A stretch of 64,000 nt of DNA from Flavobacterium ginsengisoli. Its GTDB lineage: Bacteria > Bacteroidota > Bacteroidia > Flavobacteriales > Flavobacteriaceae. The position numbers and the translations under genes were made by a program. Of this stretch, positions 1 through 35,550 are shown one piece after another. The stretch lies in contig NZ_CP121110.1 in assembly GCF_029625315.1 (NCBI RefSeq), positions 4,101,001 to 4,165,000 on the forward strand, given 5' to 3'. The notes below the pieces were generated by a model. It saw nothing but the letters and a program-made list of their open reading frames with translations, was not told the DNA's origin and ran no database searches. The stretch's first letter is position 1, and every line of letters begins with the position of its first letter.

Positions 1-992
1 TCGACGATGAGCTTTCGAGTGATTTTGAATACAATGAAAAAATTACTGGTGCATATTTAAATTATACCGGGACATTGAATGAAAAGGTTAATTTTTCGCT
101 TGGTGTAAGAGGAGAAAAAACAAGTTATGATTTGTTTACAGATGCCAACGGAACTCAGAAATTTGATAAATCGTACGGCAATTTTTTTCCAAACGCACTT
201 TTAAATTTTAATCTTTCAGAAGATTGGAAAGGACATTTTTCTTATGTTTCCAGAATTACAAGACCTAGATATCAGGCTTTAAATCCGTATGTAATTTATC
301 AAGATCCTTTTACAACGATTGAAGGAAACCCGAATTTGCTTCCAGAAAAAACACATGCTTTTGAAATAGGTACGATGTACAAAAAGTTCGATTTTAAAGT
401 TGGGTACACTTATAAAATTGATCCCATTTCGGCAGCCGCTTTGCGCGGAGACACACCAAATAGCTATATTTTAAGGGCATTGAATCTCGAAAAAGGACAT
501 ACTTTTTTCGCCTCACTTTCTAGAGCTTTCGATATTAAATGGTGGAATTCTGTTAATACAGCTAGCATTACATGGCAGAAATCGGTAGATAATTTTTATG
601 CATTTGCTTTTAGTCCTGTAGAGCCTCAAATTTATTTATATACTAATAATACATTTACGATTCTTAAACTTTTTAAACTCCAACTTTTGGCTTGGTATTT
701 AAGTGATAGAAGCTATGGGTTAGGAAACGAAAATGGCCGTTCAACTATAACTTTAGGAATAGAGAGAAACTTTTTTAAAGATGCATTAAAACTCAATTTT
801 ACAGCAAACGACATCTTTCATAAGTTTATGGTTTCTGGCGATTATAATGTCGGACAAACGCAAATTTATTATCATCGAACGTATAGTACAGATTATTTTA
901 AACTAATTGCAACATACAATTTCGGAGATTCAAAAAAGACAACGTATAAAAAAACAGAAGTTGAACAGTCAGAAAATAGTAGGGCGAGGTAA
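1..992 (+). CDS. TonB-dependent receptor-like outer membrane beta-barrel protein (C-terminal part)
   Basis: The reading frame is open from base 3, so the gene starts upstream of the window and only about 330 C-terminal residues are present. The text alternates aromatic and polar residues as expected for transmembrane beta-strands. It contains the segment RITRPRYQALNPYV followed by EGNPNLLPEKTHAFEIG, which I recognise from the outer-membrane barrel family 3 found beside carboxypeptidase-like plug domains in Bacteroidota. The role is presumably in the outer membrane, in TonB-linked uptake, but the substrate cannot be told from this part. It runs convergently towards the peptide-export cassette and is probably not part of it. 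Confidence 0.8.
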   Translation, partial: DDELSSDFEYNEKITGAYLNYTGTLNEKVNFSLGVRGEKTSYDLFTDANGTQKFDKSYGNFFPNALLNFNLSEDWKGHFSYVSRITRPRYQALNPYVIYQDPFTTIEGNPNLLPEKTHAFEIGTMYKKFDFKVGYTYKIDPISAAALRGDTPNSYILRALNLEKGHTFFASLSRAFDIKWWNSVNTASITWQKSVDNFYAFAFSPVEPQIYLYTNNTFTILKLFKLQLLAWYLSDRSYGLGNENGRSTITLGIERNFFKDALKLNFTANDIFHKFMVSGDYNVGQTQIYYHRTYSTDYFKLIATYNFGDSKKTTYKKTEVEQSENSRAR

Positions 993-996
993 CTAA

Positions 997-1187
997 TTAA
1001 TTTTTTCTTCTTTTCAATTGTGTATATGTAATGAGAATTGCAATTGTAGAAAGAAACGGGCCAATTACTAATTTAAAATCGGAGTAAGAAATATCTTTAG
1101 CATCTTTGTGAGTAGCAGACTTAAAGAAATAGCAATGTATAATAAACCAAGAGCAATGAAAACAAGTAAGAAGTTCTTTTTTGTCAT
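997..1187 (-). CDS. Small two-helix membrane protein, interrupted by a frameshift
   Basis: As read, the frame beginning MTKKNFLLVFIALGLLYIAI runs into a stop at 1068. The adjacent frame continues as a plausible protein (FKSATHKDAKDISYSDFKLV, then a second hydrophobic stretch) ending QLKRRKN at 997. One missing base near 1127-1133 would join them into 63 residues with two membrane helices and a basic C-terminus. It lies 100 bases downstream of the C39 ABC exporter on the same strand, so it may be the last gene of the cassette, perhaps an immunity or accessory protein. That role is inferred from position and size only. No family is recognised. Confidence 0.45.
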
Positions 1188-1288
1188 TTTTAGTTCTTTA
1201 GAAAGAAAAGTAAATATAATCAAAAACAGATTAATAGAAGAAAATTCTTTCGACACAAAAAGGTTATTTAATTGTAATAATGGGTTAC

Positions 1289-3451
1289 TTAGTATTCTTT
1301 CCAATACTCACTATAAAAATTGTTAGATTTCACTAATTCTTCATGATTGCCAAATTTAGATATTGTTTTATTTTCTAATATGTAAATAGTATCAGCTATA
1401 TTTTTAAGTTTGTTTAGGCGATGAGAAATGAATAATACAGCACAATCTGATTTTACTTTTTGAAGTAATTGCATGGTAAAATTTTCAGTATTTCTATCCA
1501 TGGCAGAAGTGGCTTCATCCATAATTAAAAATTGAGGTTTTTTGTATAATGCTCTGGCTAATGCAATAATTTGTTTTTGCCCGCCACTTAGATTAATTCC
1601 CTCTTCGCCTACAATGGTCATTAAACCTTGAGGCAATTGATTAATGTAAAATTCAAATCCATATTCGTGGATAAAATTTAAAATATTTTCGGGAGTATTT
1701 TCAGTTCCTAGAAGAATGTTATCAATGACAGTTCCGTTAAATATTGTAATTTCTTGAGGGATTACGCCTAATAGATTTCTATAACTTTCAAGTTTTATTT
1801 CTCTTAAATTGTATTGATTATTTACAATAATGTTTCCATTTTCATAATCATAAAAACGTTGCAATATTTGTCCGAGAGTGCTTTTTCCATTCCCACTTTC
1901 GCCAACGATAGCAGTTAATTTTCTTTTTGAAATTTCAATATCAATACTGTGGAAAAGTTCGCTTCTTCCTGCAAATCTAAAAGAGAGATTTTGAATTGAA
2001 ATAGATTCAATTTCAAAAATTTCTAAGCCGTCTTCGTTTTCTTTTTCAATAGATGAAAATTCGTACATTCTGTTAAAGGCAACTTTTGCTTCATTTATTG
2101 GAATGGATATTAAAGCTAAATTGGCAATTGAAGGAAGCAAAGAGCCAGAGATGCCTAAAATTGCCATTAATTCTCCTATTTTAATTTCATTATTAAAAAC
2201 TTGTATAGAAGTATAAATTAAAATTCCGATTATGAATATAACATTTGCTAAGCCAGATTGCCAAGAGAGGGAAATGTTAATTTTTCCAAGGTTAAATATT
2301 TGGTCTTGATAGTGAGTAAAAATTTGCCTATTTAGTTGATTAAAAATAGATTGTTTGTTGTCTGTTTTTACAGTTGAGATTCCTTGTATTGTATTTATAA
2401 AATTGCTCTCACTAGTTGCAGAACTTTGCATCACTTTTTTTTGAGACCCTAGAATTTTTTTATTGTTGCGATAAATTATGAAAAAGTAAACAGGAATACT
2501 TAAAATGCAGATTAATCCTAGTTTCCAAGAATAGAGAAATAAAAATACAGTTGAAATCACCGATACCAATATATCTATTATTAATGTGCTTGTTAGAAGC
2601 TTAATTACATTTTGTATACGTTGCGTATCATTTAATCTCGAAACTAGTTCACCTGTTTTTCTATTGTCAAAAAAAGACTTAGGGAGTTGTAATAGCTCTT
2701 TAAAAAAAGAATTATTTATTCTATTATTAAAATCTTTTGATTGTTTAAGAAGAAAGTATTGTCTTAAAGTAGATATTCCAACTCGGGCAGATAGCAGGAT
2801 GGCCAGAAGAATAATTCCTGAAATTAATTTTTTGATATTATTAGATGGAAGAATATCATCTACAAGTTTTTGAGAAAACAAAGCCATTGCCAATCCAAGA
2901 CCTGCAACAAAAACACCAAGTAAAACTGAAATCCAAATTAATTTATAATCTTCTTTTAAGAGATTTAAAAACCATTTTTTCTGATCGCTCTGCTGTTTTT
3001 TTTGCGTGATAAAAGTATCATTTGGTTCAAGAGTTAAACATGTTTTAGAAATCCAAAAATTCTCTAATTGTTCTATAGATAGATTGTAAATTCCCACTGC
3101 TGAATCCCCAATTAAAAAGCCGTCTTTTTTAGAGTACCAGTAGCAAACTACATAATGTTCTAATTGATTTTCTATTAATAGATGTAGAATGACAGGTTTG
3201 TTATGTTCAATTAGGGAGTTTATATCAGCTTCACATCCTTCAGCATTAAAACCTAATTTATTAGCGACTTGAAATAAACCTAGCATAGTCGTACCTTGCT
3301 TTGTTGTACCGCTTAATTCTCTAATTTTTTCTAGAGAGCTATTTCCATTATATAATTTTATTATAGATAATAAACAAGATGGACCGCAATCAGATTGATC
3401 TAACTGTAAGATATGCGTTTTTGTAATTTGTTTTAAATCTAATGTAGGCAT
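1289..3451 (-). CDS. Peptidase-containing ABC exporter (C39 protease, membrane domain, ATPase)
   Basis: Full-length 720-residue bacteriocin-type exporter. An N-terminal C39 peptidase (about residues 8-140) shows Gln16 and Cys22 in QLDQSDCG, the His of EHYVVCY near 100 and the Asp of IGDSA, so the protease looks active. A six-helix exporter domain covers about 160-440. The ATPase has Walker A GESGNGKST near 515, signature LSGGQKQ near 617 and Walker B FLIMDEATS near 637. Known members cut leader peptides after Gly-Gly and export the mature peptide. The ATG directly follows the stop of the thioredoxin-like gene, and two Gly-Gly-leader peptides lie upstream on the same strand, so these are the likely substrates. 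No HlyD-type fusion protein is present in the cassette. Confidence 0.93.
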   Translation of the reverse strand: MPTLDLKQITKTHILQLDQSDCGPSCLLSIIKLYNGNSSLEKIRELSGTTKQGTTMLGLFQVANKLGFNAEGCEADINSLIEHNKPVILHLLIENQLEHYVVCYWYSKKDGFLIGDSAVGIYNLSIEQLENFWISKTCLTLEPNDTFITQKKQQSDQKKWFLNLLKEDYKLIWISVLLGVFVAGLGLAMALFSQKLVDDILPSNNIKKLISGIILLAILLSARVGISTLRQYFLLKQSKDFNNRINNSFFKELLQLPKSFFDNRKTGELVSRLNDTQRIQNVIKLLTSTLIIDILVSVISTVFLFLYSWKLGLICILSIPVYFFIIYRNNKKILGSQKKVMQSSATSESNFINTIQGISTVKTDNKQSIFNQLNRQIFTHYQDQIFNLGKINISLSWQSGLANVIFIIGILIYTSIQVFNNEIKIGELMAILGISGSLLPSIANLALISIPINEAKVAFNRMYEFSSIEKENEDGLEIFEIESISIQNLSFRFAGRSELFHSIDIEISKRKLTAIVGESGNGKSTLGQILQRFYDYENGNIIVNNQYNLREIKLESYRNLLGVIPQEITIFNGTVIDNILLGTENTPENILNFIHEYGFEFYINQLPQGLMTIVGEEGINLSGGQKQIIALARALYKKPQFLIMDEATSAMDRNTENFTMQLLQKVKSDCAVLFISHRLNKLKNIADTIYILENKTISKFGNHEELVKSNNFYSEYWKEY

Positions 3452-3973
3452 TTATTCTATTTTTAATTTTTTAATCAAGATTTCAGGTTTTGTTTGTCCT
3501 TTAATTTTTTCTATGAGTTCTTGATTTTGATCATATAGTAGAATGCAAGGCAGGGAGTTTACATCAAATGTAGAAGCAAAAGTAGCTTTTGTATCATGCA
3601 GAAAATGAACATTATCATAATGATTTAGTTTATAATGTTTCGCGAATTTTTTTATCTGATTGATATTTTCAAATGATATAAATATGATCTGAATGTTTTT
3701 GAATCGTTCGATATTCTCCTGTATCATTTTGGTTTCTTCATTACAATATTCACAATCTGTGTTGAAGTAAATAAATATTATAGGAGCTGTTTTTTTTAAA
3801 TTTTTGTTTTCAAACAACTTTCCATTTAAATCTAAAAAAGAAAAATTAGGAATCATTTTTGTGTTTTTCTCAATCTCTTTTTTATGATTGATTTTCAAAA
3901 TTATTTGAAAACCTAAACAAACAGAAGCACTAATTATTAATAAGATTAGAATCTTTCGGAATGCTTTTTTCAT
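3452..3973 (-). CDS. Membrane-anchored thioredoxin-like (TlpA/ResA-type) protein
   Basis: About 173 residues from the ATG at 3973. An in-frame ATG at 4012 is less likely because the chosen one sits one base after the preceding stop. One N-terminal membrane anchor is followed by a thioredoxin fold: PIIFIYFNTDCEYCNEE carries the CxxC redox pair, and SLPCILLYD has the conserved cis-proline. Family members act in the periplasm on disulfides. It directly abuts the exporter gene. The peptides encoded in this cassette contain paired cysteines, so disulfide formation or isomerisation of the exported peptides is a reasonable inference. Confidence 0.85.
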   Translation of the reverse strand: MKKAFRKILILLIISASVCLGFQIILKINHKKEIEKNTKMIPNFSFLDLNGKLFENKNLKKTAPIIFIYFNTDCEYCNEETKMIQENIERFKNIQIIFISFENINQIKKFAKHYKLNHYDNVHFLHDTKATFASTFDVNSLPCILLYDQNQELIEKIKGQTKPEILIKKLKIE

Positions 3974-3974
3974 G

Positions 3975-4604
3975 TTAGCTGTAATTAAGTGTGAAAAACA
4001 TAATCGTTGCAACCCATATAAATAAACTTGGTAAATAGCTAATACTAATAACTTTTAAACCATAATCTGTATTAGTATCCGTTAGTTTTCCAATTTCGTA
4101 ACCTAAATAAATCACATAGAAGAGTTCAAACAAATTAAGCACTTGAAAAGGATAAATAAACCAATTTTCTAATCCTTTATAACCAACTATATTTAACGCT
4201 GAGAATGGATAGAAGTATTGAATGTCTTCTAGGGTATAAGTGGTTTGAAAAAAGTAAAACCAAATAATTTTACAGATGGGTACCAATAAAAAAATAAATT
4301 CTGCTTTGAGAACAAAATTTAATATGGTATTGAATTTTAAATCTTTGTTGCAGAAGAATAGACCAATATATAAAATAATAGAGACTACAAATATTTTTAA
4401 TAATAAAAGAAAAGGAATAAACAGATTAGAAAACCATTGCCATTTTCTTTGAAAGGTAATAAAATTTTCAACTTGCTTAACATTAAGTTGCACTGAAAGA
4501 AAATTGTAAAGTAAATCTTCAAATTTTATTGAATTTTTGAAAATTTCTGTAATCAGAATAGTAGCTATGGAAAGCAAGAACCATTTTATAAATGGAAATT
4601 TCAT
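3975..4604 (-). CDS. Polytopic membrane protein of unknown function in the peptide-export cassette
   Basis: 209 residues with about five hydrophobic segments, beginning MKFPFIKWFLLSIATILITE. No motif or family is recognised. Its stop is one base before the ATG of the thioredoxin-like gene, so the two are almost certainly co-transcribed and translationally coupled. It could be an immunity or export accessory protein, but this is based only on location. The 86 bases separating it from the upstream peptide gene are the largest gap among the first six genes of the cassette. Confidence 0.75.
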   Translation of the reverse strand: MKFPFIKWFLLSIATILITEIFKNSIKFEDLLYNFLSVQLNVKQVENFITFQRKWQWFSNLFIPFLLLLKIFVVSIILYIGLFFCNKDLKFNTILNFVLKAEFIFLLVPICKIIWFYFFQTTYTLEDIQYFYPFSALNIVGYKGLENWFIYPFQVLNLFELFYVIYLGYEIGKLTDTNTDYGLKVISISYLPSLFIWVATIMFFTLNYS

Positions 4605-4690
4605 ATTGAAGAATTATGAAGAAAAAGCGACAACAATTTTAGTTACTGCTTTTTTTAGTTATAGATAAATCTCATTTAAGATGTTCGTTT

Positions 4691-4854
4691 TTAACTATTC
4701 CAACATCTTCCGATTTGACCATTCAATCCACTTGCGCTAGCAATAAGACCTCCTCCTGGATATGCATATGTAGCGACGGCTAAAATTCCGACCCAGCCAC
4801 AAGCAACAACTCCACCATTAATTTTTTCAAGATTACTTTTTTTAATTTTTTCAT
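4691..4854 (-). CDS. Double-glycine-leader peptide 2 (bacteriocin-like), hidden by a homopolymer error
   Basis: The ATG at 4854 opens MKKL and then runs out of frame at a seven-T tract (4837-4843 on the plus strand). Restoring one base gives MKKLKKSNLEKINGG, a 15-residue Gly-Gly leader, followed by a 39-residue product (VVACGWVGILAVATYAYPGG, then GLIASASGLNGQIGRCWNS). The total is 54 residues and the frame closes exactly. As written, the peptide appears fused to the preceding membrane protein. The mature part is hydrophobic, glycine-rich and has two cysteines. It shares PGGGLIA with peptide 1. This is consistent with a class II bacteriocin-like substrate of the C39 exporter, but activity is not shown. 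Confidence 0.75.
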
Positions 4855-5023
4855 GATTTGAATTTTTGTTATTTAAAATAATTCCAATAATATTAGCGCC
4901 TAACGCAATTATGAGTGAAAAAGCTAAACATTCAAAGATTTTGTTTGTTAGAAAGTGTTTGTTAGCGTCTAAGAACATAATGCCAACAATAGACCAAATA
5001 AAAGCTTTTACAGATTTATACAT
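4833..5023 (-). CDS. 63-residue membrane protein between the two leader peptides, candidate immunity protein
   Basis: The protein starts MYKSVKAFIWSIVGIMFLDA and has two hydrophobic helices and a charged tail. With the missing base at 4837-4843 restored, it ends HEKIKKK at a TAA at 4833 and overlaps the start of peptide 2 by 22 bases. Without the repair it reads through into peptide 2 as a false 110-residue fusion. Its ATG overlaps the stop of peptide 1 (TAATG), so the two are translationally coupled. Small two-helix proteins next to class II bacteriocin genes are often immunity proteins. Here that is inference from context. Confidence 0.65.
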
Positions 5024-5240
5024 TACAGAGCCATCTCATAAGGTGCTTCTTTTGATTCAACAGGAACAGCATAAAAACAATCTTGAGCTGCAGACTGCAG
5101 ACAAAAATACTTATTCCTGCAATCAAACCTCCACCAGGTATAGCACACGCAATCACGGATGCTGCCCCCATTAGCATACAACCTCTACCACTTGTTCCTC
5201 CTTTTACATTCTCCATTTTATTTAATTGTAATTTCTTCAT
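5023..5240 (-). CDS. Double-glycine-leader peptide 1 (bacteriocin-like)
   Basis: The leader MKKLQLNKMENVKGG is followed by TSGRGCMLMGAASVIACAIP and GGGLIAGISIF. As read, the frame then drifts to a stop at 5016. The plus strand shows GCAGAC twice (5090-5095, 5097-5102). Removing one base from each restores GCAGC and gives a tail of alanines, then QDCFYAVPVESKEAPYEMAL, with its TAA overlapping the ATG of the next gene. The product is 71 residues: leader 15, mature 56, three cysteines. The exact join is reconstructed. The Gly-Gly leader and the PGGGLIA segment shared with peptide 2 are read directly. It is the first gene of the cassette. Confidence 0.8.
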
Positions 5241-5285
5241 AAATGATTTGAATTAATTGGTTAATATTTAGATTTAATGTGCTTA

Positions 5286-5293
5286 CAAATGTA
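5286..5293 (-). promoter_or_regulatory. Putative -7 element for the peptide cassette
   Basis: On the minus strand TACATTTG fits the Bacteroidota consensus TAnnTTTG. It lies 46 bases before the ATG of peptide 1, giving a leader of about 40 bases. No good TTG is seen at the usual -33 distance, so this is a tentative call. Confidence 0.4.
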
Positions 5294-5353
5294 TAAGTGA
5301 TTTAAAAAACATCTTAGTCGAAAATCGGTTATTAAAAACCTAAACCTGAATAA

Positions 5354-5382
5354 TTGTAAAATAATTCTTATGTTTATATTTG
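5354..5382 (+). promoter_or_regulatory. Promoter of the XRE regulator
   Basis: TTG (5354-5356), 18 bases, then TATATTTG (5375-5382) matches the Bacteroidota -33/-7 pattern. Transcription would begin near 5389. This rules out the in-frame ATG at 5380 and supports the start at 5401. Confidence 0.6.
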
Positions 5383-5400
5383 TTTTTTAAATTGTTAATT

Positions 5401-5754
5401 ATGAATAAAATTGTAGGAAATAATCTGAAAGGTTTGAGAAAATCAAAGAATATGTCACAAGAAGAGGCGGCAGATCATTTGCAAATTTCCCAATCGGCTT
5501 ATGCGAGAATGGAACGAGGGGAGAGTACATCTTGGGCTATTCATTTTAATAAAATTTGCCAAATGTTCGAAATTACCCCAGAAGAATTAGTGAAGAAAGG
5601 ATTAGGTGATTCTGTTTATGAAAGTCTGATGAATAAGGATAGACAAACAGAAATTGCAATGCTTAGCGTTTACAGGAAAATCATAAAACAATATGAGTTG
5701 CAAATTGAAGATTTAAAGACTATTATTAAGCACTTAAATAAAGGCAAAAACTAA
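5401..5754 (+). CDS. XRE-family helix-turn-helix regulator
   Basis: 117 residues from the ATG at 5401. Residues about 6-65 form an HTH_3 domain (NLKGLRKSKNMSQEEAADHL, QISQSAYARMERG), followed by a helical tail (MLSVYRKIIKQYELQIEDLK) that could dimerise as a coiled coil. Family members bind DNA as repressors or activators. It is transcribed away from the peptide cassette, with 160 bases between the two start codons, so it is a natural candidate regulator of the cassette. The link is positional only. Confidence 0.85.
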   Translation: MNKIVGNNLKGLRKSKNMSQEEAADHLQISQSAYARMERGESTSWAIHFNKICQMFEITPEELVKKGLGDSVYESLMNKDRQTEIAMLSVYRKIIKQYELQIEDLKTIIKHLNKGKN

Positions 5755-5756
5755 AA

Positions 5757-5780
5757 AAGGCTCCACATAAGTGAAGCCTT
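5757..5780. terminator. Bidirectional terminator between XRE gene and aspartate kinase
   Basis: AAGGCTCCAC and GTGAAGCCTT form a stem with one mismatch around an ATAA loop. An A-run precedes it, so it should serve the convergent minus-strand gene. The T-richness after it on the plus strand is weaker. Confidence 0.6.
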
Positions 5781-5825
5781 ATCAATAATCTTTGAATTGA
5801 AATAATTACCTTTTATAAAGCAATA

Positions 5826-7085
5826 TTAGTTTAATTCTTTAGTCACAATTTGCATTGTTTCGCGGCTAACTTGTTTCAATAAAACCTCTTTGTTAGCTTC
5901 AACAGTTTGCGCAGCCTCTTCTGTAAAGTGACGGATTGTATATAAAGTTACATTTTCGCTGTATTCTACTTTGAATTTTTTAGAAAGAATAGCATTCAGT
6001 TCTGGGAAATTTCCAAATTTATCTTCCACGCAAACAGAGAAACTAATTGCAGAGTTCTGGATTAAGTTTACTTTGATTTTAAATTCGTGGAATAGACCAA
6101 AAATCTCACTGATGTTTTCTTCCATAATGAAAGAGAAATCAATTGATGAAAGAGAAATTAAAAGCTGTTCTCTTTTTACGATAAAACATGGATATTGCGG
6201 TTCCAAATCAACTCCTTTAGAAACACAAGTTCCTTTTAATAACGGGTTGATAAAAGATTTTACGTATAACGGAATTTCTTTTTTCTGTAAGGGCTGTAAT
6301 GTTTTTGGGTGAATAACCGTTGCTCCGTAAAAAGCTAATTCGATTGCTTCGCGGTATGAAATCTGGTTTAACAAACTTGCATTTTCAAAATAACGCGGAT
6401 CGGCATTCATAACTCCAGGAACGTCTTTCCAGATTGTTACACTTTCTGCATTTAAGCAGTAAGCAAAAATTCCAGCAGTATAATCAGAACCTTCACGGCC
6501 AAGAGTCGTTGTGAAATTATTTTCATCAGCACCTAAGAAACCTTGTGTAATATTTAATTGTTTTCTAGGTACATTTTTACTGATGTTTTGTTGCGTAGTT
6601 TCCCAATCAACCTCTGCATCTCTGTAGTTGGCATTGGTTTTAATGAAATTACGAACATCAAGCCATTGCGTCTGAATTCCTCTGAAATTCATATAATGGC
6701 TTAAGATATTAGTCGAAATCAATTCACCAAAACTTACCACTTGATCGTAAACAAAGTTGTAATTTGGAGATTTATTATGAGCTAAAAAGTATTCCAACTC
6801 AGCAAACTGTGCATTTACAGCATTGAAAACGGAATGATTTTCATCTTCAAACAAATCTAATAAGATTTGATTGTGGTATTTTTTTATTTCTTGTACAGAA
6901 GCATTTAATTCTGTCGATTTTTCAAAGTAATTCTTGATTACAACTTCAAGAGCATTTGTTGTTTTTCCCATAGCTGAAACTACAAGAATCACATCTTCAT
7001 AACCTACTTTCTGTAAAACGTCATATACGTTTTTAATTCCATCTGCATCTTTTACCGATGCACCACCAAATTTAAATACTCTCAT
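5826..7085 (-). CDS. Aspartate kinase (monofunctional)
   Basis: 419 residues. It phosphorylates aspartate at the entry to lysine, threonine and methionine synthesis. The N-terminal KFGGASVKDADG and the central TTTLGREGSDYTAG are the nucleotide and substrate motifs of the amino-acid kinase fold. The last 120 residues look like ACT-type regulatory sequence. The family usually has GRGGSD where this one has GREGSD. No homoserine dehydrogenase domain is attached. It is a single gene, with an inverted repeat between it and the upstream GNAT gene. Confidence 0.92.
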   Translation of the reverse strand: MRVFKFGGASVKDADGIKNVYDVLQKVGYEDVILVVSAMGKTTNALEVVIKNYFEKSTELNASVQEIKKYHNQILLDLFEDENHSVFNAVNAQFAELEYFLAHNKSPNYNFVYDQVVSFGELISTNILSHYMNFRGIQTQWLDVRNFIKTNANYRDAEVDWETTQQNISKNVPRKQLNITQGFLGADENNFTTTLGREGSDYTAGIFAYCLNAESVTIWKDVPGVMNADPRYFENASLLNQISYREAIELAFYGATVIHPKTLQPLQKKEIPLYVKSFINPLLKGTCVSKGVDLEPQYPCFIVKREQLLISLSSIDFSFIMEENISEIFGLFHEFKIKVNLIQNSAISFSVCVEDKFGNFPELNAILSKKFKVEYSENVTLYTIRHFTEEAAQTVEANKEVLLKQVSRETMQIVTKELN

Positions 7086-7153
7086 TTTTTAATTAATAGA
7101 TTTTTAGATTTTAGATTTCAGATTCAAACCGAAACCTACGTATTTGTTTTTTT

Positions 7154-7214
7154 GCCACAGATTAAAATGATTTACACAGATTTTAAAATCATTTTAATCC
7201 TTATAATCTGTGGC
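7154..7214. repeat. Inverted repeat, GCCACAGATTA family, copy 1
   Basis: GCCACAGATTA at 7154-7164 is matched by TAATCTGTGGC at 7204-7214, with further pairing inside (AAAATGATTT against AAAATCATTTT). The same arms recur at 13793-13853, with half copies at 27123-27153 and 40336-40365. Confidence 0.85.
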
Positions 7215-7226
7215 TAAATATTTTTT

Positions 7227-7715
7227 TTATAATTTTTCTAAGAACAAATTAACTCCTGCTTCATCCATTTGTACAACTTGCCAGTCTTCTAGAATTCTTG
7301 CGCCAGAATTCTTGTAAAAATTAACTGCTGGTGTATTCCATGCCAAAACATTCCATTCCACTCTTCTTACATTATCTCTTCTTCCTTGTTTCATGATTTC
7401 AGCATAAAGAGCAGAACCTAAACCAGTGCCTCGCATATTTTCTTTTACAATCAAATCTTCAAGATGAATTGTCTTTCCTTTCCAAGTCGAATAGCGATAA
7501 TAATATAAAGCAATTCCAACAATTTCCTTTTGTTTTTCTTCGTTTTCGATCTCTGCTACAAAAACATGAAATAATGGTTTTTCTCCAAAGCCGTCGCGCA
7601 CTAAATCCTCTTCTGTAATGACAACCGCATCGGGTTCTTTTTCGAATATTGCCAGCTCCTGAATAAGCCCTAACACCGATTTCATATCTTCAGGATTTCC
7701 TTTTCTAATATTCAT
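7227..7715 (-). CDS. GNAT N-acetyltransferase (diamine/thialysine acetyltransferase-like)
   Basis: 162 residues with the GNAT acetyl-CoA loop ENMRGTGLGSALY around residues 93-105 and the downstream WNVLAWNTPAVNFYKNSGA, typical of the group that includes spermidine/spermine and thialysine acetyltransferases (long FEKEPDAV N-terminus, HLEDLIV before the loop). It transfers acetyl from acetyl-CoA to a small amine. The true substrate is uncertain. It stands alone on the minus strand, upstream of and co-directional with the aspartate kinase gene. Confidence 0.85.
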   Translation of the reverse strand: MNIRKGNPEDMKSVLGLIQELAIFEKEPDAVVITEEDLVRDGFGEKPLFHVFVAEIENEEKQKEIVGIALYYYRYSTWKGKTIHLEDLIVKENMRGTGLGSALYAEIMKQGRRDNVRRVEWNVLAWNTPAVNFYKNSGARILEDWQVVQMDEAGVNLFLEKL

Positions 7716-7886
7716 ATATTCCTATTTTTAACTATTTAATATCTAAAAAAGCCTCATTTTAAGTAGTGCTTTTTGCAGATTATTAGCAAATATACAATAG
7801 TAGCAAACTAACAAAATAATTTTTAAATCATTCTCACAAAATAAGCGATATTTGTGACTTAAAAATAAAACTATAACGATTTAGAA

Positions 7887-8895
7887 ATGGAAGAACGCAA
7901 TAAAACACTGGGAGAGTTTATTATTGAGAACCAAAAAGCATTTCAGTATTCGTCGGGAGAACTCTCGCGAATTATCAACTCTATTCGATTGGCAAGCAAA
8001 AGTTGTCAACCATAAAGTAAACCAAGCGGGTTTAGTAGATATTGTGGGAGCCGCAGGCGAACAGAATATTCAAGGAGAAGACCAGCAAAAATTAGATGTC
8101 TATGCAAACGAAGTATTTATCCAGACGTTAATAAACCGTGAGATTGTCTGTGGTATTGCTTCTGAAGAAAACGACGATTTTATTACTGTTCAGGGGAGCG
8201 ACAACAGTCATAATAATAAGTACGTGATCTTAATGGATCCGCTTGACGGATCTTCAAACATTGATGTAAATGTTTCTGTAGGAACTATCTTTTCTGTTTT
8301 CAGAAGAGTAACTCCAATAGGAACTCCGGTAACTAGCGAGGATTTTTTACAACCGGGAATCAATCAAGTTGCAGCAGGCTATGTAATTTATGGAACTTCA
8401 ACGATGTTGGTTTATACTACTGGACATGGCGTGAATGGTTTTACGTTAAATCCAGCGATAGGTACATTTTATCTTTCGCACCCAAACATGAAATTTCCAG
8501 AAAACGGAAATATCTATTCGGTAAACGAAGGAAATTATGTTCATTTTCCGCAGGGAGTAAAAAATTATATTAAATACTGCCAGCGCGAAGAAGGAGATAG
8601 ACCTTATACTTCAAGGTATATAGGAAGTTTGGTAGCCGATTTTCATCGAAATATGATAAAAGGCGGAGTTTATATTTATCCGACAAGTTCAAAAGCGCCA
8701 AAAGGAAAATTACGTTTGTTGTACGAATGTAATCCGATGGCATTTTTAGCAGAACAGGCGGGAGGAAAAGCAACAGATGGTTTTGGAAGAATTTTAGAAA
8801 TTCAACCAACCGAATTGCATCAAAGAGTTCCTTTCTTCTGCGGAAGCTATAATATGGTAGAAAAAGCCGAGGAATTTATGGCTGAAGCGAATTAA
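7887..8895 (+). CDS. fbp: Class I fructose-1,6-bisphosphatase (frameshift at 7992-7997)
   Basis: The gene starts [20 protein letters not shown] at 7887. One extra A in GCAAGC (7992-7997) breaks the frame; removing it gives INSIRLAAKVVNHK and a 335-residue protein. It hydrolyses fructose-1,6-bisphosphate to fructose-6-phosphate in gluconeogenesis, in the cytoplasm. The metal site [20 protein letters not shown] and the substrate segment [20 protein letters not shown] are intact. The error restores a GCAGC motif and is very likely a sequencing artefact, since the rest of the gene is undegraded. Confidence 0.93.
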
Positions 8896-8926
8896 GTATA
8901 ATTGAAAAACGAAAAATAAATACTTT

Positions 8927-9431
8927 ATGAAAAAAACATTATTATTTAGCTTCTTGGTGCTTTTTATATCCTGTAATGATTTGCCAAAAGATGCGACAAT
9001 TCAGAATATAATTAAAACTAAAATAGCTCAAGAATCTTTTGATAATGTAGAATTGGTAGATTTTAATATAGTTCGTGGTGTAGAAAACACATCTTTTGGA
9101 CATACTTATGATGTTGAATTTACGGGTAAAGTAAAATATTTAAGTCCAGGTTATGTTAGAAACGCAGACCTTACAGGGAACAAATGCAAATGAAATGAAT
9201 TTTTTAATTGTTGTTGAAAAAGTCAGTGAATCCAATAATATGCTTTATGATTATTTAAAAGTAAAAACGGGTATGATTAAAGAGATTACTGGTTCAATAC
9301 AATTTATTAAAGGTGCAGATTTATTTGATAAAAGTACTTACTCGAAACCTGATGTTTGGGATCTAAATGTGGATCAAAATTATGGAATGAGCTTAAGAGA
9401 AATTAAAAACATAAATGGTTATAAACGTTAA
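8927..9431 (+). CDS. Small lipoprotein, unknown function (frameshift at 9164-9169)
   Basis: The lipoprotein signal is MKKTLLFSFLVLFISC, with the acylated Cys at 16. The frame breaks at GCAGAC (9164-9169). Dropping one A restores GCAGC and gives 167 residues, joining YVRNA to LQGTNANEMNFLIVVEKV. No family is recognised. The text looks like a soluble alpha/beta periplasmic domain. It follows fbp closely on the same strand, but a shared role is not evident. Confidence 0.7.
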
Positions 9432-29629: not shown

Positions 29630-31642
29630 ATGAAAATCATTAAACTATTTACGTTATCTGCGATTTTATTATTTTCTCCCAAAATAATTTCGCAGGAATT
29701 CAAGCTAGGAAAAGTAACTGTTGCCGAACTTGAACAAAAGGTGCATCCGAAAGATTCTTCGGCAGTTGCGGCCATACTTTTTGAGAAAGGACAAAATGTT
29801 TTCGACTACGATCAAGACAATGGTTTTACAATGCAGTTGGAGGTAACAGCTAAAATTAAAATCTATAAAAAAGAAGGCTACGATTGGGCCACAAAAAAAA
29901 TAAGATATTATATAGCAGGAAACGGATCTAAAGAGAAAGTTCTTATTTCTGACGCGACAACATATAATTTAGTTAACGGAAAAATTGAGAAAACTAAATT
30001 AAAAGGTGAAGCGGAATTTGATGAAGCAATCAATAAATATTGGGCTCAGAAGGTTTTTACTATGCCAAATGTTAAAGAAGGTTCTATTGTTGAATTTAAA
30101 TATATAATAAAAAATAACAGTATTGGAAGTCCAAGAGATTGGAATTTTCAGAGCACAATTCCTGTAAATTATTCGGAGTTTAAAATGTATGTTCCAGAAT
30201 ATTTTGTTTATAATAGAAATTTTAAAGGATATGTAAGTCCGAAAATTATTGAAGAAAAAAACAATAGATCAATCCAATATACATACAGAGAAGGCCGAAA
30301 TGGAGTTGTGAGCGGAAGTGCTTCACAAGAAAAATTGGATTTTATAGAAACAAGAACTGCTTATATTGCAGAAAACTTGCCAGCGTTAAAAGATGAAAAT
30401 TATGTCAATAATATTGATAATTATACTGTAAGTCTAAGTCAAGAATTATCAATGACAAAATATCCTAATTCACCATTTAAGACCTTTTCTACAGATTGGA
30501 ATTCGGTGGTAAAAACAATCTATGATTATGACGATTTTGGACCTGAATTAAATAAAACAGGATATTTTGAAGAAGATTTGAAAAAACTGCTCGTAGACTC
30601 GAAAACGCAAGAAGAGAAAATATGGACTATTTTTAATCATGTAAAATCGAACGTTAAATGGAATAACTATTTTGGTTATGGATGTGACAACGGAGTTAAA
30701 AAAGCGTACAAAGAAAAAACAGGAAATATTGCTGATATCAATTTGATGCTGACAGCAATGTTACGCTACTCGGGTTTAACTGCAAATCCGGTTTTAGTTA
30801 GTACGCGTTCAAACGGAATTGCTTTGTTTCCAAACAGAACGGCATTCAATTACGTAATTGCGGCAGTAGAAACTCCTAATGGATATATTTTATTAGATGC
30901 ATCAGAAAAATTTTCTACACCAAATATTTTGCCTCTTAGAGTTCTAAACTGGTCAGGAAGATTAATACGAAAAGATGGAACATCTGAAGAGATTAATTTA
31001 ATGCCGGAAAAAACATCTTCTGATAATGTTTTTATGACTTACAATATTGAAGCCGATGGGAAAGTAACAGGAAAAACCAGAAGACAGTCTGTAGATTATA
31101 ATGCCATGATTACAAGAAGCAAAATAAGCAATCTTAAAGAAGAAGAATATTTAGAAAAACTTGAAAATGGAAATAATAAAATAGAAATAAGTGAATATTC
31201 TAAAACTAATGAGAATGATATATTGCTTCCTATGGTTGAAACTTATTCATTTACTGGAAATAATTTATGTGAGCTTATTGGAGAGAAAATTTATGTAAGT
31301 CCGATGTTGTTTTTTACCAACGATAAAAATCCTTTTAAGCAGGAGTTAAGAGAGTATCCGGTAGATTTTAGCTATCCTTTTGCAGATAAATATAATATTA
31401 CAATTAAAATTCCAGATGGTTTTGCGGTTGAAACATTGCCAGCCCCAGCCGCTGTATCGATGGAGAACAATCTGGGAGCTTTTAAATTTAATATATTGGC
31501 TAATGGAAATACCTTACAGCTGTCTATTTTACATCAGATAAATGAAGCAATTGTATCTGCTGAAAAATACGAAATGTTGAAGGAATATTATAAAACAATG
31601 ATTGCAAAAGAAACAGAAAAAATCGTTTTAAAACGTATTTAA
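29630..31642 (+). CDS. DUF3857/transglutaminase-like protein 2, catalytic Cys and His lost
   Basis: 670 residues with a signal peptide (FTLSAILLFSPKIISQ). The order of domains is as in gene 1, but the core reads KEKTGNIADINLMLTAMLRY where the catalytic Cys motif GDCKxxx should be, and FNYVIAAVE where the His (FNHVI) should be. LLDASE keeps the Asp. It is therefore unlikely to be a working protease or transglutaminase. It probably binds peptide or glycan, or is structural. It shares LGKVTVAELEQKVHPKDSSA at the mature N-terminus with genes 3 and 4. One base separates it from gene 3. Confidence 0.85.
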   Translation: MKIIKLFTLSAILLFSPKIISQEFKLGKVTVAELEQKVHPKDSSAVAAILFEKGQNVFDYDQDNGFTMQLEVTAKIKIYKKEGYDWATKKIRYYIAGNGSKEKVLISDATTYNLVNGKIEKTKLKGEAEFDEAINKYWAQKVFTMPNVKEGSIVEFKYIIKNNSIGSPRDWNFQSTIPVNYSEFKMYVPEYFVYNRNFKGYVSPKIIEEKNNRSIQYTYREGRNGVVSGSASQEKLDFIETRTAYIAENLPALKDENYVNNIDNYTVSLSQELSMTKYPNSPFKTFSTDWNSVVKTIYDYDDFGPELNKTGYFEEDLKKLLVDSKTQEEKIWTIFNHVKSNVKWNNYFGYGCDNGVKKAYKEKTGNIADINLMLTAMLRYSGLTANPVLVSTRSNGIALFPNRTAFNYVIAAVETPNGYILLDASEKFSTPNILPLRVLNWSGRLIRKDGTSEEINLMPEKTSSDNVFMTYNIEADGKVTGKTRRQSVDYNAMITRSKISNLKEEEYLEKLENGNNKIEISEYSKTNENDILLPMVETYSFTGNNLCELIGEKIYVSPMLFFTNDKNPFKQELREYPVDFSYPFADKYNITIKIPDGFAVETLPAPAAVSMENNLGAFKFNILANGNTLQLSILHQINEAIVSAEKYEMLKEYYKTMIAKETEKIVLKRI

Positions 31643-31643
31643 A

Positions 31644-33559
31644 ATGAGAACTTTCTTAATTTCTATTCTTCTATTTTGCGCATTTCTGAAAATGAATGCG
31701 CAAAACGCTTCTTTAGGAAATGTTACAATAGCGCAGTTAGAAGAAAAAAGGCATCCTAAAGATTCTGCCGCTGTTCTTGCTATTTTGTATAGTAATATTG
31801 CTATTGATCTTAATGCAAATGGAAACTCCCAAAAGACCACCACAAAGAAAGTTAAGATCTATAAAAGTGAAGGATATAATTTGTCAAACGTCCTGATTTA
31901 TTTTGCGACCGGAAAACTTAGTTACGTAAATATAGTAAGCGCTTATACCTACAATTTGGTAGACGGAAAAATTGTAAAGACAAAACTGAAACCTGAAAAC
32001 GAGTTTATCGAAAAAACGAACAGCAGTTATTGGATCAAAAAAATAGCTTTTCCAGAAGTTAAAGAAGGTTCTATTATAGAGTATCAATTTACAGAAGAAG
32101 GAGGATTTTCAAGTCTTTATCATTGGAATATTCAGGAAAATATTCCAGTTAATTATTCTGAATTAAAAACAACTCTTCCAGATGCTTTTGAGTTTAAAAG
32201 AAATCTGAAAGGTTTTTTCCTCCTAAAATAACTTCAAAAATAGCGAACACTTACCATTATATTGCAACAGAAACCACTTATGTTTTTCAGAATCTTCCAG
32301 CAATGCGCGAGGAAGCTTTTGTAAATAATATGGACAATTATAGAACTGGAATTTCTTTAGAGTTAGAAAGAATTGCTGTTCCTGGACAGTTTTATAAAAC
32401 ATTTTCATCAGACTGGACAAGTGTTGCCAAAACAATTTATGATTTTGATTCTTTTGGAGTAGAACTGAACAAATCTGGCTATTTTGAAGATGACCTGAAA
32501 GTTGTATTAGAGGGAAAAGTTAAACCTGATGCAAAAATTACATCAATTTTAGAATATGTAAAATCAAATGTAAAATGGAATCAGCATAATGGATATTCTT
32601 GCGAAAAAGGAGTTCGAAAAGCCTACAAAGAAAAAACAGGAAATAGTGCAGATATTAATTTGATGCTTACAGCAATGCTTCGAGTCTGCTAAACTTACTG
32701 CGAATCCTGTTTTAATTAGTACACGCTCTAATGGGATTGCTTATTTTCCAAATTTAAATGCTTTCAATTATGTGATTGCCGCAGTTGAAACTGGAGACGA
32801 AATGATACTACTCGATGCAACCGATCCATATTCAACTCCAAACGTTCTTCCTTTAAGAGATTTAAATTGGATAGGAAGATTGATTCGTAAAGACGGAACG
32901 TCAGAAAGTATTGATTTAGCACCTAAAAAATTTGTCGCAGATAATATTGCAGTCGATTATACAATTGAAGCGGGAGGAAGAATAAACGGAAAAGTAAGAT
33001 GTCAGTACACAGAGCACAAAGCAATGAACTGCAGAAATAGTTTTGAAAATCTTAAAGAAGACGCTTATCTAGACAATCTTGAAAATAAATATGATAAAAT
33101 TGAAATAAGCGATTACAGCCGTACAAATGAAAAAGATGTTTTGCTGCCTGCTGTAGAAAGCTTTTCGTTTACAAGCACCAATTTGTGCGAGGTAATTGGA
33201 GATAAAATATACGTTAAGCCAATGCTTTTTTTGCTAGTACAAAAAATCCGTTTAAGCAAGAAACAAGAGAATATCCCGTAGATTTTGGATTTCCTTTTTT
33301 AGAAAAGTACAATATTAGTATTCGAATCCCAGAAGGATATACCCTAGAAACAGTTCCTCTTGCAGGCGTATTGGTTATGGAGGAAGATCTTGGAGTTTTT
33401 AGATACAATATTGCAGTCAACGATAATGTACTGCAATTATTAGTGTCACATCAAATTAACTCCTCTATAATATCTAGAGAACAATACGGAATTCTGAAAG
33501 ATTACTACAAAGAAATGATCACAAAACAGACTGAAAAAATAGTTTTAAAACGTATTTAA
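31644..33559 (+). CDS. DUF3857/transglutaminase-like protein 3 (three frameshifts)
   Basis: Four fragments join when three errors are undone: a T lost at 32213-32218, a T gained in GTCTGC at 32684-32689, and a T lost at 33226-33232. The sum is 638 residues, exactly in frame. It has a signal peptide (ISILLFCAFLKMNAQ). The core is KEKTGNSADINLMLTAMLRA with Cys replaced by Ser and FNYVIAAVE with His replaced by Tyr, so it is catalytically dead like gene 2. It is shorter than gene 2, mainly in the DUF3857 part. Two errors are homopolymer slips and one restores GCTGC, so I do not call it a pseudogene. Confidence 0.8.
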
Positions 33560-33561
33560 TT

Positions 33562-35550
33562 ATGTTGCGATTTCTCCTAGTTTGTATTCCCTTTTTTTGG
33601 AGTACAATGACAATTCAAGCTCAAAATTATGAATTAGGCAAAGTAACAATTGCAGAATTAAAAGAGAAAGTTCATCCTAAAGATAGCAGCGCACCCGCTG
33701 CTATCTTGTTTAAAAAAGGAAGGACTTATTTTGGTTATAACAAAGATGTTGGGTTTTATGCCAATCATGTCTGTGAGGTAAAAATCAAAATTTATAAAAA
33801 AGAAGGTTTAAGCTGGGCCGACCAGAAAGTGCGTTTTTATATTGGTTATGAAAAATTAAATGAGGACCGTTTAGAATTTTCTGAAGCGGTTACGTATAAT
33901 TTGGAAAACGGAAACATTGTAAAAACTAAATTAGACAATCAAGGAACATTCAAAAATAAAATTAATCAATACTGGAAAGAAAAGACTATTACATTGCCAA
34001 ATGTAAAAGTAGGTTCTGTTATTGAATACAAGTATGTTTTAAGATCTGAGAATCTTGGGAAATTTCCAGATTTTGATATTCAGTTTAATATTCCGGTAGA
34101 CTATTTTTATTATAAAACTCAAATTCCAGAATTTTATATTTATAAACCAATTTTAATTGGAGGAATTCCACTCGAAACAGAATCTAAATTCACAAATGGC
34201 AGTCAGAGTTTTGATAACGCTTATAGTCAGACAAGCTCATTTAGCTATAAACAAATTGAAACCTTTTATACAGGAAAAGATGTTCCTGCTTTAAAAGAGG
34301 AACCATACATTAATAATCTCGAAAATTATCGCGGAAGCATTCAGCAAGAACTAGAGAGAGTTCGACTTCCAGATCAGCCTATAAAAGATTACAGTTTAAC
34401 ATGGGAAGGGGTAGCAAAAACTATTTTTAAAGATGATAGTTTTGGTAAACAGCTTAATCAAGCCTCTTTATTTACAGATGACTTAAATAAATTGCTGCCA
34501 AATGTAGAGGATAAAAATGAAAGATTAAATCTGATTTTTACTTATGTCAAAAACCGAATGAATTGGAATGAGATTAATAGTTGCTACACAGAAAAAGGAG
34601 TCGAAAAAGCGTATAAAGATCAGACAGGAAATGTTGCTGAAATTAATTTTATTTTGATAAATATGCTTCGTGCGGCTGGTATAGAAGCCAATCCTGTTTT
34701 GGTAAGCACAATTCAAAACGGACTTCCGGTTTATCCAACAAGAACAGGATTTAATTATGTTATAGCAGCAGCCGAAATTGATGGTAAAAGAATTCTTCTA
34801 GATGCATCTCATAAACTCACAGCTCCCAATATTTTACCATTAAATGTATTAAATTGGAAAGGAAGGCTGATCAAAAAAGATGGAGCTTCTGAGGAAATCG
34901 AATTAGATCCAATAATACTATCTAAAGAAATTTATAGTCTTATAGTTAAAATACATCCCGATGGTAAAATGAATGGCCAAGGCAGGATTCAACACACAGA
35001 TTACGATGCTTACAGTTTTAGAGTAGAAAACAATGCAAAATCAGAAGACGCTTATCTTGAAAAATTTGAAAATAGATTGGGAGGTTTGTCTGTCTCAAAT
35101 TATAAAATAGAGAATCAGAAGTCAAATTTAGATCAATCGGTTATAGAGACTTTTTCTTTTGATTCAAGCAGCCGTTCAGATATTATTGAAGGGAAGATTT
35201 TCGTAAATCCTCTATTGTTTTTTACTCAAAGTAAAAATCCGTTCAATCAGGAAAAAAGACAAATGCCTGTCTATTTTGGATATAAAAACTTAGAAAAGTT
35301 CAATTTTAATATTGAAATACCGCAAGGATATACTGTAGAATCACTTCCAAAACCAGTCAGAATAGCATCAGAGGACAAGAAGATGTCCTTTATCTTAAAT
35401 TTTTCGGCTACAGAAAACAAAATTCAAATTGTGAGCCAAAAAGAAATCAACAGTAGTATTTTTGCGACTGAGGATTACAGAATGATAAAAGAGTTTTTTC
35501 AGAAGATGATCGTAAGCCAAAATGAAAAAATAATTCTTAAAAAGATATAA
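33562..35550 (+). CDS. DUF3857/transglutaminase-like protein 4, catalytic Cys and His lost
   Basis: 662 residues with signal FLLVCIPFFWSTMTIQAQ. It begins NYELGKVTIAELKEKVHPKD, close to genes 2 and 3. The core reads KDQTGNVAEINFILINMLRA (Cys to Val) and FNYVIAAAE (His to Tyr). The C-terminus is KNPFNQEKRQMPVYFGY and the family-typical IPQGYTVESLPKP. Two bases separate it from gene 3 and three from the MazG-like gene, so the cluster is one transcript. Confidence 0.85.
   Translation: MLRFLLVCIPFFWSTMTIQAQNYELGKVTIAELKEKVHPKDSSAPAAILFKKGRTYFGYNKDVGFYANHVCEVKIKIYKKEGLSWADQKVRFYIGYEKLNEDRLEFSEAVTYNLENGNIVKTKLDNQGTFKNKINQYWKEKTITLPNVKVGSVIEYKYVLRSENLGKFPDFDIQFNIPVDYFYYKTQIPEFYIYKPILIGGIPLETESKFTNGSQSFDNAYSQTSSFSYKQIETFYTGKDVPALKEEPYINNLENYRGSIQQELERVRLPDQPIKDYSLTWEGVAKTIFKDDSFGKQLNQASLFTDDLNKLLPNVEDKNERLNLIFTYVKNRMNWNEINSCYTEKGVEKAYKDQTGNVAEINFILINMLRAAGIEANPVLVSTIQNGLPVYPTRTGFNYVIAAAEIDGKRILLDASHKLTAPNILPLNVLNWKGRLIKKDGASEEIELDPIILSKEIYSLIVKIHPDGKMNGQGRIQHTDYDAYSFRVENNAKSEDAYLEKFENRLGGLSVSNYKIENQKSNLDQSVIETFSFDSSSRSDIIEGKIFVNPLLFFTQSKNPFNQEKRQMPVYFGYKNLEKFNFNIEIPQGYTVESLPKPVRIASEDKKMSFILNFSATENKIQIVSQKEINSSIFATEDYRMIKEFFQKMIVSQNEKIILKKI

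Follow-up and report, generated by a model that had tools for sequence, protein, structure and literature searches.

A putative two-peptide bacteriocin cassette with a bacteroidetocin-type export core in Flavobacterium ginsengisoli

Results and Discussion

Organisation of the cassette

A cassette of seven elements, located on the minus strand at positions 997-5240 of a 64,000-nucleotide stretch of the Flavobacterium ginsengisoli chromosome (NZ_CP121110.1, positions 4,101,001 to 4,165,000; hereafter the window), is probably a two-peptide bacteriocin locus with an immunity gene of its own, in which an export core of the bacteroidetocin type would serve peptides of another class. The bacteriocin reading is supported because the core has the layout known from peptides with tested killing activity and because, among related loci, the peptides co-vary with their small membrane partner proteins. 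The locus is assigned to the bacteroidetocin kind on the predicted products of its export core, and not on its peptides. The genome to which the window belongs (G000) is a single contig of 5.4 Mb. The elements, together with the divergent gene and the intergenic region beside them, are as follows.

5016..5240, minus strand: peptide 1 gene; 15-residue double-glycine (GG) leader, then a Gly/Ala-rich hydrophobic part with Cys; relatives in loci L043 and L076
4838..5023, minus strand: SM_B, small two-helix membrane protein, candidate immunity protein; a separate gene in L043 and L076
4691..4854, minus strand: peptide 2 gene; GG leader, then a mature part that contains two Cys and ends in CWNS; relatives in L043 and L076, a faint one in L010
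3975..4604, minus strand: transmembrane (TM) protein of 209 aa with five membrane helices; homologue of the bacteroidetocin-type five-TM protein
3452..3973, minus strand: thioredoxin-like protein, membrane-anchored, with CxxC (domain scan and motifs)
1289..3451, minus strand: C39 peptidase ATP-binding cassette (ABC) exporter, 720 aa, motifs intact (domain scan and motifs)
997..1187, minus strand: SM_A, small membrane protein, read in two frames; family members occur in cassettes and, in other genomes, on their own at this site
5401..5754, plus strand: helix-turn-helix (HTH) gene, divergent, candidate regulator; HTH genes adjoin many related cassettes
5286..5382, no strand assigned: intergenic region in which each strand has a TAnnTTTG element

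The order peptide 1/SM_B/peptide 2/TM/thioredoxin-like/exporter/SM_A is the one described in an earlier reading made from the sequence alone, and it was confirmed here, as was the tightness of most joints, which held for four of the six. The joint between the thioredoxin-like and exporter genes measures 0 bases and that between the TM and thioredoxin-like genes 1 base; as read, peptide 1 overlaps the small open reading frame (ORF) that follows it, and this ORF overlaps peptide 2. The exceptions are the gaps of 86 bases from peptide 2 to the TM gene and of about 100 bases past the exporter. The exporter ORF contains C39, ABC-membrane and ABC-ATPase domains and keeps the protease Cys, His and Asp stretches expected from that reading, along with Walker A and B, the signature and the H-loop. 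A domain scan placed the thioredoxin-like protein in the AhpC-TSA/redoxin class. The GC content of the cassette is 28.2%, against 32.6% for the window. No gene for an HlyD-type adaptor was present among the ORFs of positions 1-9000, the stretch searched, and no radical S-adenosylmethionine (SAM) or lanthipeptide enzyme domain was detected in the seven ORFs scanned, in agreement with the sequence-only reading; on the latter ground the cassette does not fit a modified peptide of either kind. A TolC gene is likewise absent from the cassette.

Conservation of the export core

A total of 1028 relatives of the TM protein were found at E <= 0.001 in the protein collection, and a Pfam scan assigned it to no family. 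Its predicted structure (mean predicted local distance difference test score, pLDDT, 93.3) consists of five long membrane helices. Matches were present in 34 of 398 genomes of the genus, own genome counted, two of which failed inspection; a separate draw of 100 relatives gave 6, the own genome once more included. Thirty-seven loci were read (the window, L009, L010 and L043-L076), and the order TM, thioredoxin-like, C39 was kept in 31 of them, several with broken frames. Of the six others, L072 and L073 have no TM gene, and L052, L069, L071 and L075 are broken, partial or at a contig end. The CxxC motif of the thioredoxin-like protein was invariant in all ten sequences aligned. The whole arrangement from peptide 1 to the exporter recurs in L043, with all frames open and with AG in place of GG at both cleavage sites, and in L076, where the exporter is frame-broken.

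A class-level search detected the TM family in 20 of 395 genomes, G000 and G102 among them, and 20 regions were fetched from the 18 others. TM, thioredoxin-like and C39 genes occur together in L139, L140, L141, L143 and L157; L156 has TM, peptide and C39 genes, L142 stops at a contig end, and L145, L148, L149 and L158 have the TM gene with a C39-containing ORF. In L145, L148 and L149 this ORF is of roughly 450-480 residues and is accompanied by a divergent HTH gene, and that of L145 ends without the ABC ATPase part; the combination is possibly a further type of export.

In the available text of Coyne 2019 (PMC6671954), the bacteroidetocins (class IIf) have a region of four genes, in which the GG peptide, whose leader is 15 residues long, is encoded together with a five-TM protein, a thiol oxidoreductase and a C39 exporter. 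The window shares with this set, so far as that text describes it, the five-TM protein, the thiol oxidoreductase, the C39 exporter without HlyD and the 15-residue GG leader. The sequence-only reading had held that the layout matches none of the common modified-peptide ones; the genes typical of those are indeed absent, and the layout itself does match the published bacteroidetocin set, which that reading had left out of consideration. Among 301 Bacteroidaceae-like genomes, sampled by a DUF3836 match, three had TM matches. One of their loci, L173, was judged to be bacteroidetocin-type by its layout, with TM, 60-residue peptide, oxidoreductase and C39 exporter in the published order; its peptide has four Cys and a leader of 15 residues, with Lys following the GG. 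The TM group of L173, L172 and L156 matched the Flavobacterium TM family along its full length, over 194 columns, at 98.1% profile probability. In a tree of 29 exporters, to be read with a long-branch warning that applies to L173 above all, the 23 TM-linked exporters, those of window type and of L173 alike, fell on one side of a branch with 100/99 support, and four HlyD-type plasmid exporters and two paralogues from G000 fell on the other. Of the four plasmid exporters, two (L159 and L163) have annotated HlyD genes, and the other two, on records without annotation, are grouped with them by sequence.

Several further arrangements were noted. L172 (Bacteroidaceae-like, 5095-7001) has four near-identical GG-leader peptide genes around the TM gene, with thioredoxin-like and C39 genes, and L162 (3808-7329, a Flammeovirga pectinis plasmid) has TM, redoxin and C39 exporter genes followed by a GG peptide gene. 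G000 itself has further C39-type exporter genes on contig C1, at 3094529, 3244241, 439008 and 3393260, several of them split in two frames; two of its further C39-type exporters are those that group with the HlyD-type ones in the tree.

Peptides and leaders

A 15-residue leader pattern close to MKKLELNQMENLEGG was searched for in 55 loci (the 37 read plus the 20 class-level regions, two without TM being skipped). All 37 occurrences were on the TM gene's strand, against 0 on the opposite one; as the pattern was derived from some of the same peptides, the strand contrast, and not the count, is the test. Fifteen of the 16 genomes with leader-peptide matches also carry the TM protein, the exception being G161. 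Homologous GG leaders in related genomes, and their co-occurrence with the exporter core, on which the sequence-only reading had made its bacteriocin-like interpretation depend, were both found, and that interpretation is supported. A profile of the peptide 1 family matched 64 proteins, the window's own included, and Capnocytophaga locus L010 encodes a pair of GG peptides, of which the second is faintly similar to peptide 2 and likewise ends in CWNS. The leader of peptide 1 is open in the window and that of peptide 2 is frame-broken. No Pfam or NCBIfam model reached its cut-off on the peptides scanned, which is why routine annotation passes them over.

Mature sequences were compared for 41 peptides of Flavobacterium and Capnocytophaga (32 by pattern and nine by hand; L070 and L074 excluded). 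Two Cys are present in 35, three in four, four in one and one in one, and in 34 of the 40 with at least two the last Cys is no more than 8 residues from the C-terminus. On average the first and last Cys are 0.74 of the length apart, compared with 0.36 in shuffled sequences (maximum of 2000 shuffles 0.48), and their spacing is constant inside families (for example 42, 42, 42 or 44, 44, 44). Gly and Ala together make up 38% of residues, the median net charge is 0, and GxxxG motifs occur in 32 of the 41. Taken with the thioredoxin-like protein, the conserved end-to-end Cys pair suggests a disulfide-closed loop.

These window-type peptides resemble bacteroidetocins in size, in a GG leader of 15-16 residues and in having at least two Cys; they differ in the sequence past the leader, in mostly having two Cys rather than four and in their median charge. 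A relative of peptide 1 gave no BLASTP alignment with the L173 peptide, and a profile comparison of the two aligned the leader only (probability 2.5%), whereas the positive control, the L156 peptide against that of L173, showed 42% identity. With similarity confined to the leader, a bacteroidetocin by peptide sequence was ruled out. The peptide genes of the window also precede the TM gene, whereas in the available description of the bacteroidetocin loci (PMC6671954) they sit between the TM and oxidoreductase genes.

Small membrane partners

Partners were counted for 46 peptides found by pattern in 39 loci, window excluded. A small hydrophobic ORF lies directly downstream of 31 of the 46, two of these ORFs being further GG peptides, which leaves 29 of 46; of the control ORFs, those of at least 120 aa from these loci, 40 of 382 were followed by such an ORF. 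Three partners are each common to two peptides. For 29 peptide/partner pairs (26 deduplicated from this count, plus L051, L053 and L059 by hand), the similarity of peptides correlated with that of partners (r 0.813; 0.805 as a partial correlation on TM similarity), and 0 of 5000 permutations gave a value as high, in a test devised after the data were seen. Such co-variation among relatives is as expected of cognate immunity. L057 has one peptide/partner pair behind the exporter, whose kin in L055 and L056 stand before the TM gene; as the positions differ, the pair moves as a unit.

The chromosomal slot bears on the same question. In the window, as in the same-species genome G127, it is flanked by TonB-receptor and aspartate-kinase genes. 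In G127 it holds only SM_A and a DUF5808 protein, and no HTH, peptide, TM, thioredoxin-like or exporter gene is present in it. SM_A was matched in 24 of 398 genus genomes, ten with TM and 14 without, and in all 14 TM-less genomes it adjoins the aspartate kinase (3.2 kb stretches read); SM_A was not matched in 24 of the 34 genomes with TM. At the cassette-free site L103, SM_A, DUF5808 and two SM_B-like genes stand in a row. Lone SM_A-type genes look like immunity genes retained without the weapon; alternatively, they may be resident genes of other use.

It is also conceivable, though we regard it as distinctly the weaker proposal, that the locus is a bacteriocin locus in which the small membrane proteins aid the export or folding of the peptides rather than conferring immunity. 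A peptide-specific helper would co-vary with its peptide too, 17 of 46 peptides do without a partner, and another small two-helix protein, found between the TM and thioredoxin-like genes in several loci, is not tied to any single peptide family and seems to belong to the core. Against a helper role, SM_A-type genes stay at the same site in the 14 TM-less genomes, where an export aid would be useless, the four such genes in the row at L103 have no exporter, and the partner of one peptide family, described next, resembles a possible target and not an export part.

In that family, marked by GLAAGVAAG, the partner is a TatA_B_E protein in L046 (E about 1e-17) and L060 (1e-15), and also in L058 by close similarity and in L057 and L071 by reading frames. 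Among nine genomes examined, the five with the pair have three TatA_B_E genes each, and the four without it, the window's included, have two. It is a guess that the GLAAGVAAG peptide attacks the Tat translocase. A broader picture, put forward tentatively and with less conviction than its opposite, is of a flavobacterial arsenal of interchangeable, disulfide-closed, uncharged, membrane-active bacteriocins, each with its own immunity and all using one core, in which the TatA-linked peptide would hit Tat and the target would have a resistant copy in the extra TatA. Titles and abstract openings in the open-licence literature yielded no such target for a TatA-linked bacteriocin immunity.

Frame breaks and the condition of the locus

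As sequenced, the frame changes part way through peptide 1, at the junction of the small ORF with peptide 2 and in SM_A. The junction reads as one 110-residue ORF, in which SM_B, whose end is uncertain, runs on into peptide 2 in one frame, and the frame of peptide 2 shifts within its leader. G127, which is about 98% identical over most of the window, served as the reference for errors. Compared with G127, the window has 24 single-base insertions, of which 15 fall at GCWGC, a motif present at 0.8% of random positions, five in runs of at least six and four at neither; runs of at least five account for ten of the 18 single-base deletions. Peptide 1 and SM_A are broken at GCWGC-type sites and peptide 2 at a run of seven A. 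Because insertions across the window cluster at the same types of site, the breaks in the cassette look like assembly errors; the GCWGC clustering looks like a systematic read error, perhaps at a methylated motif. Conserved genes beyond the cassette are split by insertions relative to G127 in like manner, for example near 7995, 9168, 11218, 26507 and 42653.

That the locus is decayed and non-functional in this strain would account for the three broken stretches, and it has parallels in the relatives L044, broken in several genes, and L052, which retains only pieces of TM. This explanation is nevertheless very improbable, given that the same error signature extends over the whole window, where genes outside the cassette are split too, and that the TM, thioredoxin-like and exporter ORFs are intact.

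Regulatory region and the signalling alternative

The combination TTG/TAnnTTTG is the consensus of flavobacterial promoters. Between the cassette and the HTH gene, TAnnTTTG occurs on the minus strand at 5293 and on the plus strand at 5375, the latter with TTG upstream (TTG-N18-TATATTTG from 5354); the whole window has 19 TTG/TAnnTTTG matches. A divergent HTH gene, beside this cassette and many related ones, is what a secreted signalling (pheromone) system would call for, in which cell density or neighbours would be signalled by the peptides and answered by the HTH gene, and GG-leader peptides cut by C39 exporters do act as pheromones in other bacteria. No sensor kinase was found among the cassette genes, and the peptides are long, hydrophobic, diverse among close relatives and co-variant with small membrane proteins, as in an arms race. 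The layout is, moreover, that of tested killers in the available text of PMC6671954. Signalling, which the sequence-only reading had offered as an alternative, gained no support and is considered improbable.

Comparison with other bacteriocin systems

According to the accessible parts of the reports, bacteroidetocins kill Bacteroidota and target BamA (PMC8546649), and their activity is attenuated on deletion of the TM, peptide or oxidoreductase gene (PMC6671954). Their producers are described there as self-inhibited, with immunity conferred by neither the TM protein nor the oxidoreductase and no immunity gene found (PMC6671954), and inhibition of the own producer is likewise described in the corresponding portion of PMC10352776, with no homologues of described immunity proteins in the Bacteroidales clusters for ribosomally synthesised and post-translationally modified peptides (RiPPs). 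The small membrane partners set the present loci apart from those producers as so described. L172 and L173, whose peptides the leader pattern missed, have no such partner in their ORF lists, and L070, L156, L157 and L162, which have bacteroidetocin-like or other Cys-containing peptides, are partnerless.

Class II microcins such as microcin V (MccV) share the GG leader, the C39 exporter, a hydrophobic Gly-rich peptide and, with SM_B as the candidate here, a small membrane immunity protein, and the peptide of one relative reached a sub-threshold E of 0.058 against MccV. The window cassette differs from them in having no HlyD-type adaptor or TolC gene and in having dedicated TM and thioredoxin-like proteins instead. 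Class IIb two-peptide bacteriocins likewise combine a pair of adjacent peptide genes, common GxxxG motifs and a lone small membrane protein. The window, L043 and L076 each have such a pair together with one small membrane gene, a likeness of gene anatomy only, and the Gram-negative host, the Cys in both peptides and the five-TM and thioredoxin-like export partners are unlike that class. The C39 loci on Bacteroidota plasmids (L159 and L163) also have a C39 ABC exporter, and a gene adjoining that of L159 is annotated 'bacteriocin-type signal sequence'; unlike the window, they have HlyD and TolC genes, and their exporters lie across the 100/99 branch, subject to the long-branch warning. Coyne et al. 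aside, no comparable system was found in the open-licence literature, as judged by titles and the beginnings of abstracts.

Proposed mode of action

The sequences themselves show the genes and their order, the leaders, the exporter motifs, a homologous core and the presence or absence of the cassette at one chromosomal site, and in relatives the end-to-end Cys and the co-variation of peptides with partners. From them we infer leader cleavage, disulfide formation, killing, immunity, regulation and passage of the outer membrane. Two GG-leader peptides would be made, with SM_B encoded between them; the C39 domain would cleave both leaders, and the ABC part would translocate the peptides through the inner membrane. 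The thioredoxin-like protein, anchored in the membrane, may link the end Cys, bringing the Gly/Ala-rich chain into a closed loop or hairpin, with the five-TM protein as a fixed partner of export or maturation. The mature pair would then hit the inner membrane, or a membrane protein, of rival flavobacteria, while SM_B would protect the producer and the divergent HTH gene would regulate the cassette.

Several observations weigh against a two-peptide bacteriocin locus with its own immunity gene. The 17 partnerless peptides include some of Flavobacterium type (L054, L061 and L063, and one each in L057, L065 and L076), and the window's own two peptides and SM_B stand outside the co-variation test. 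The TM family is also found outside loci of this type, as nine of the 20 class-level regions carry TM without a thioredoxin-like or C39 gene. Three stretches of the cassette are frame-broken in this assembly, and the end of the window's peptide 1 is not readable with certainty. Release across the outer membrane is left without explanation by the cassette genes, and the expression and activity of the locus are predicted from sequence.

Other features of the window

A palindromic repeat of about 80 bases at 7141-7226, to which 64 of the 68 matches reported in G127 correspond, often on both strands at one place, is like a repetitive extragenic palindromic (REP) element or a miniature inverted-repeat transposable element (MITE). 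Within 30478-33712 lie two neighbouring paralogues, stretches of about 1.3 kb of which each aligns with the G127 counterpart of the other at about 67% identity.

Significance

In the available accounts of self-inhibiting producers, self-protection against bacteroidetocin-type peptides has so far been the missing piece. The flavobacterial peptides form a distinct class, predicted to be closed by one Cys pair. With the same core accompanied by peptide-matched membrane proteins, some of which appear to be kept without the weapon, immunity, target and specificity would become directly testable.

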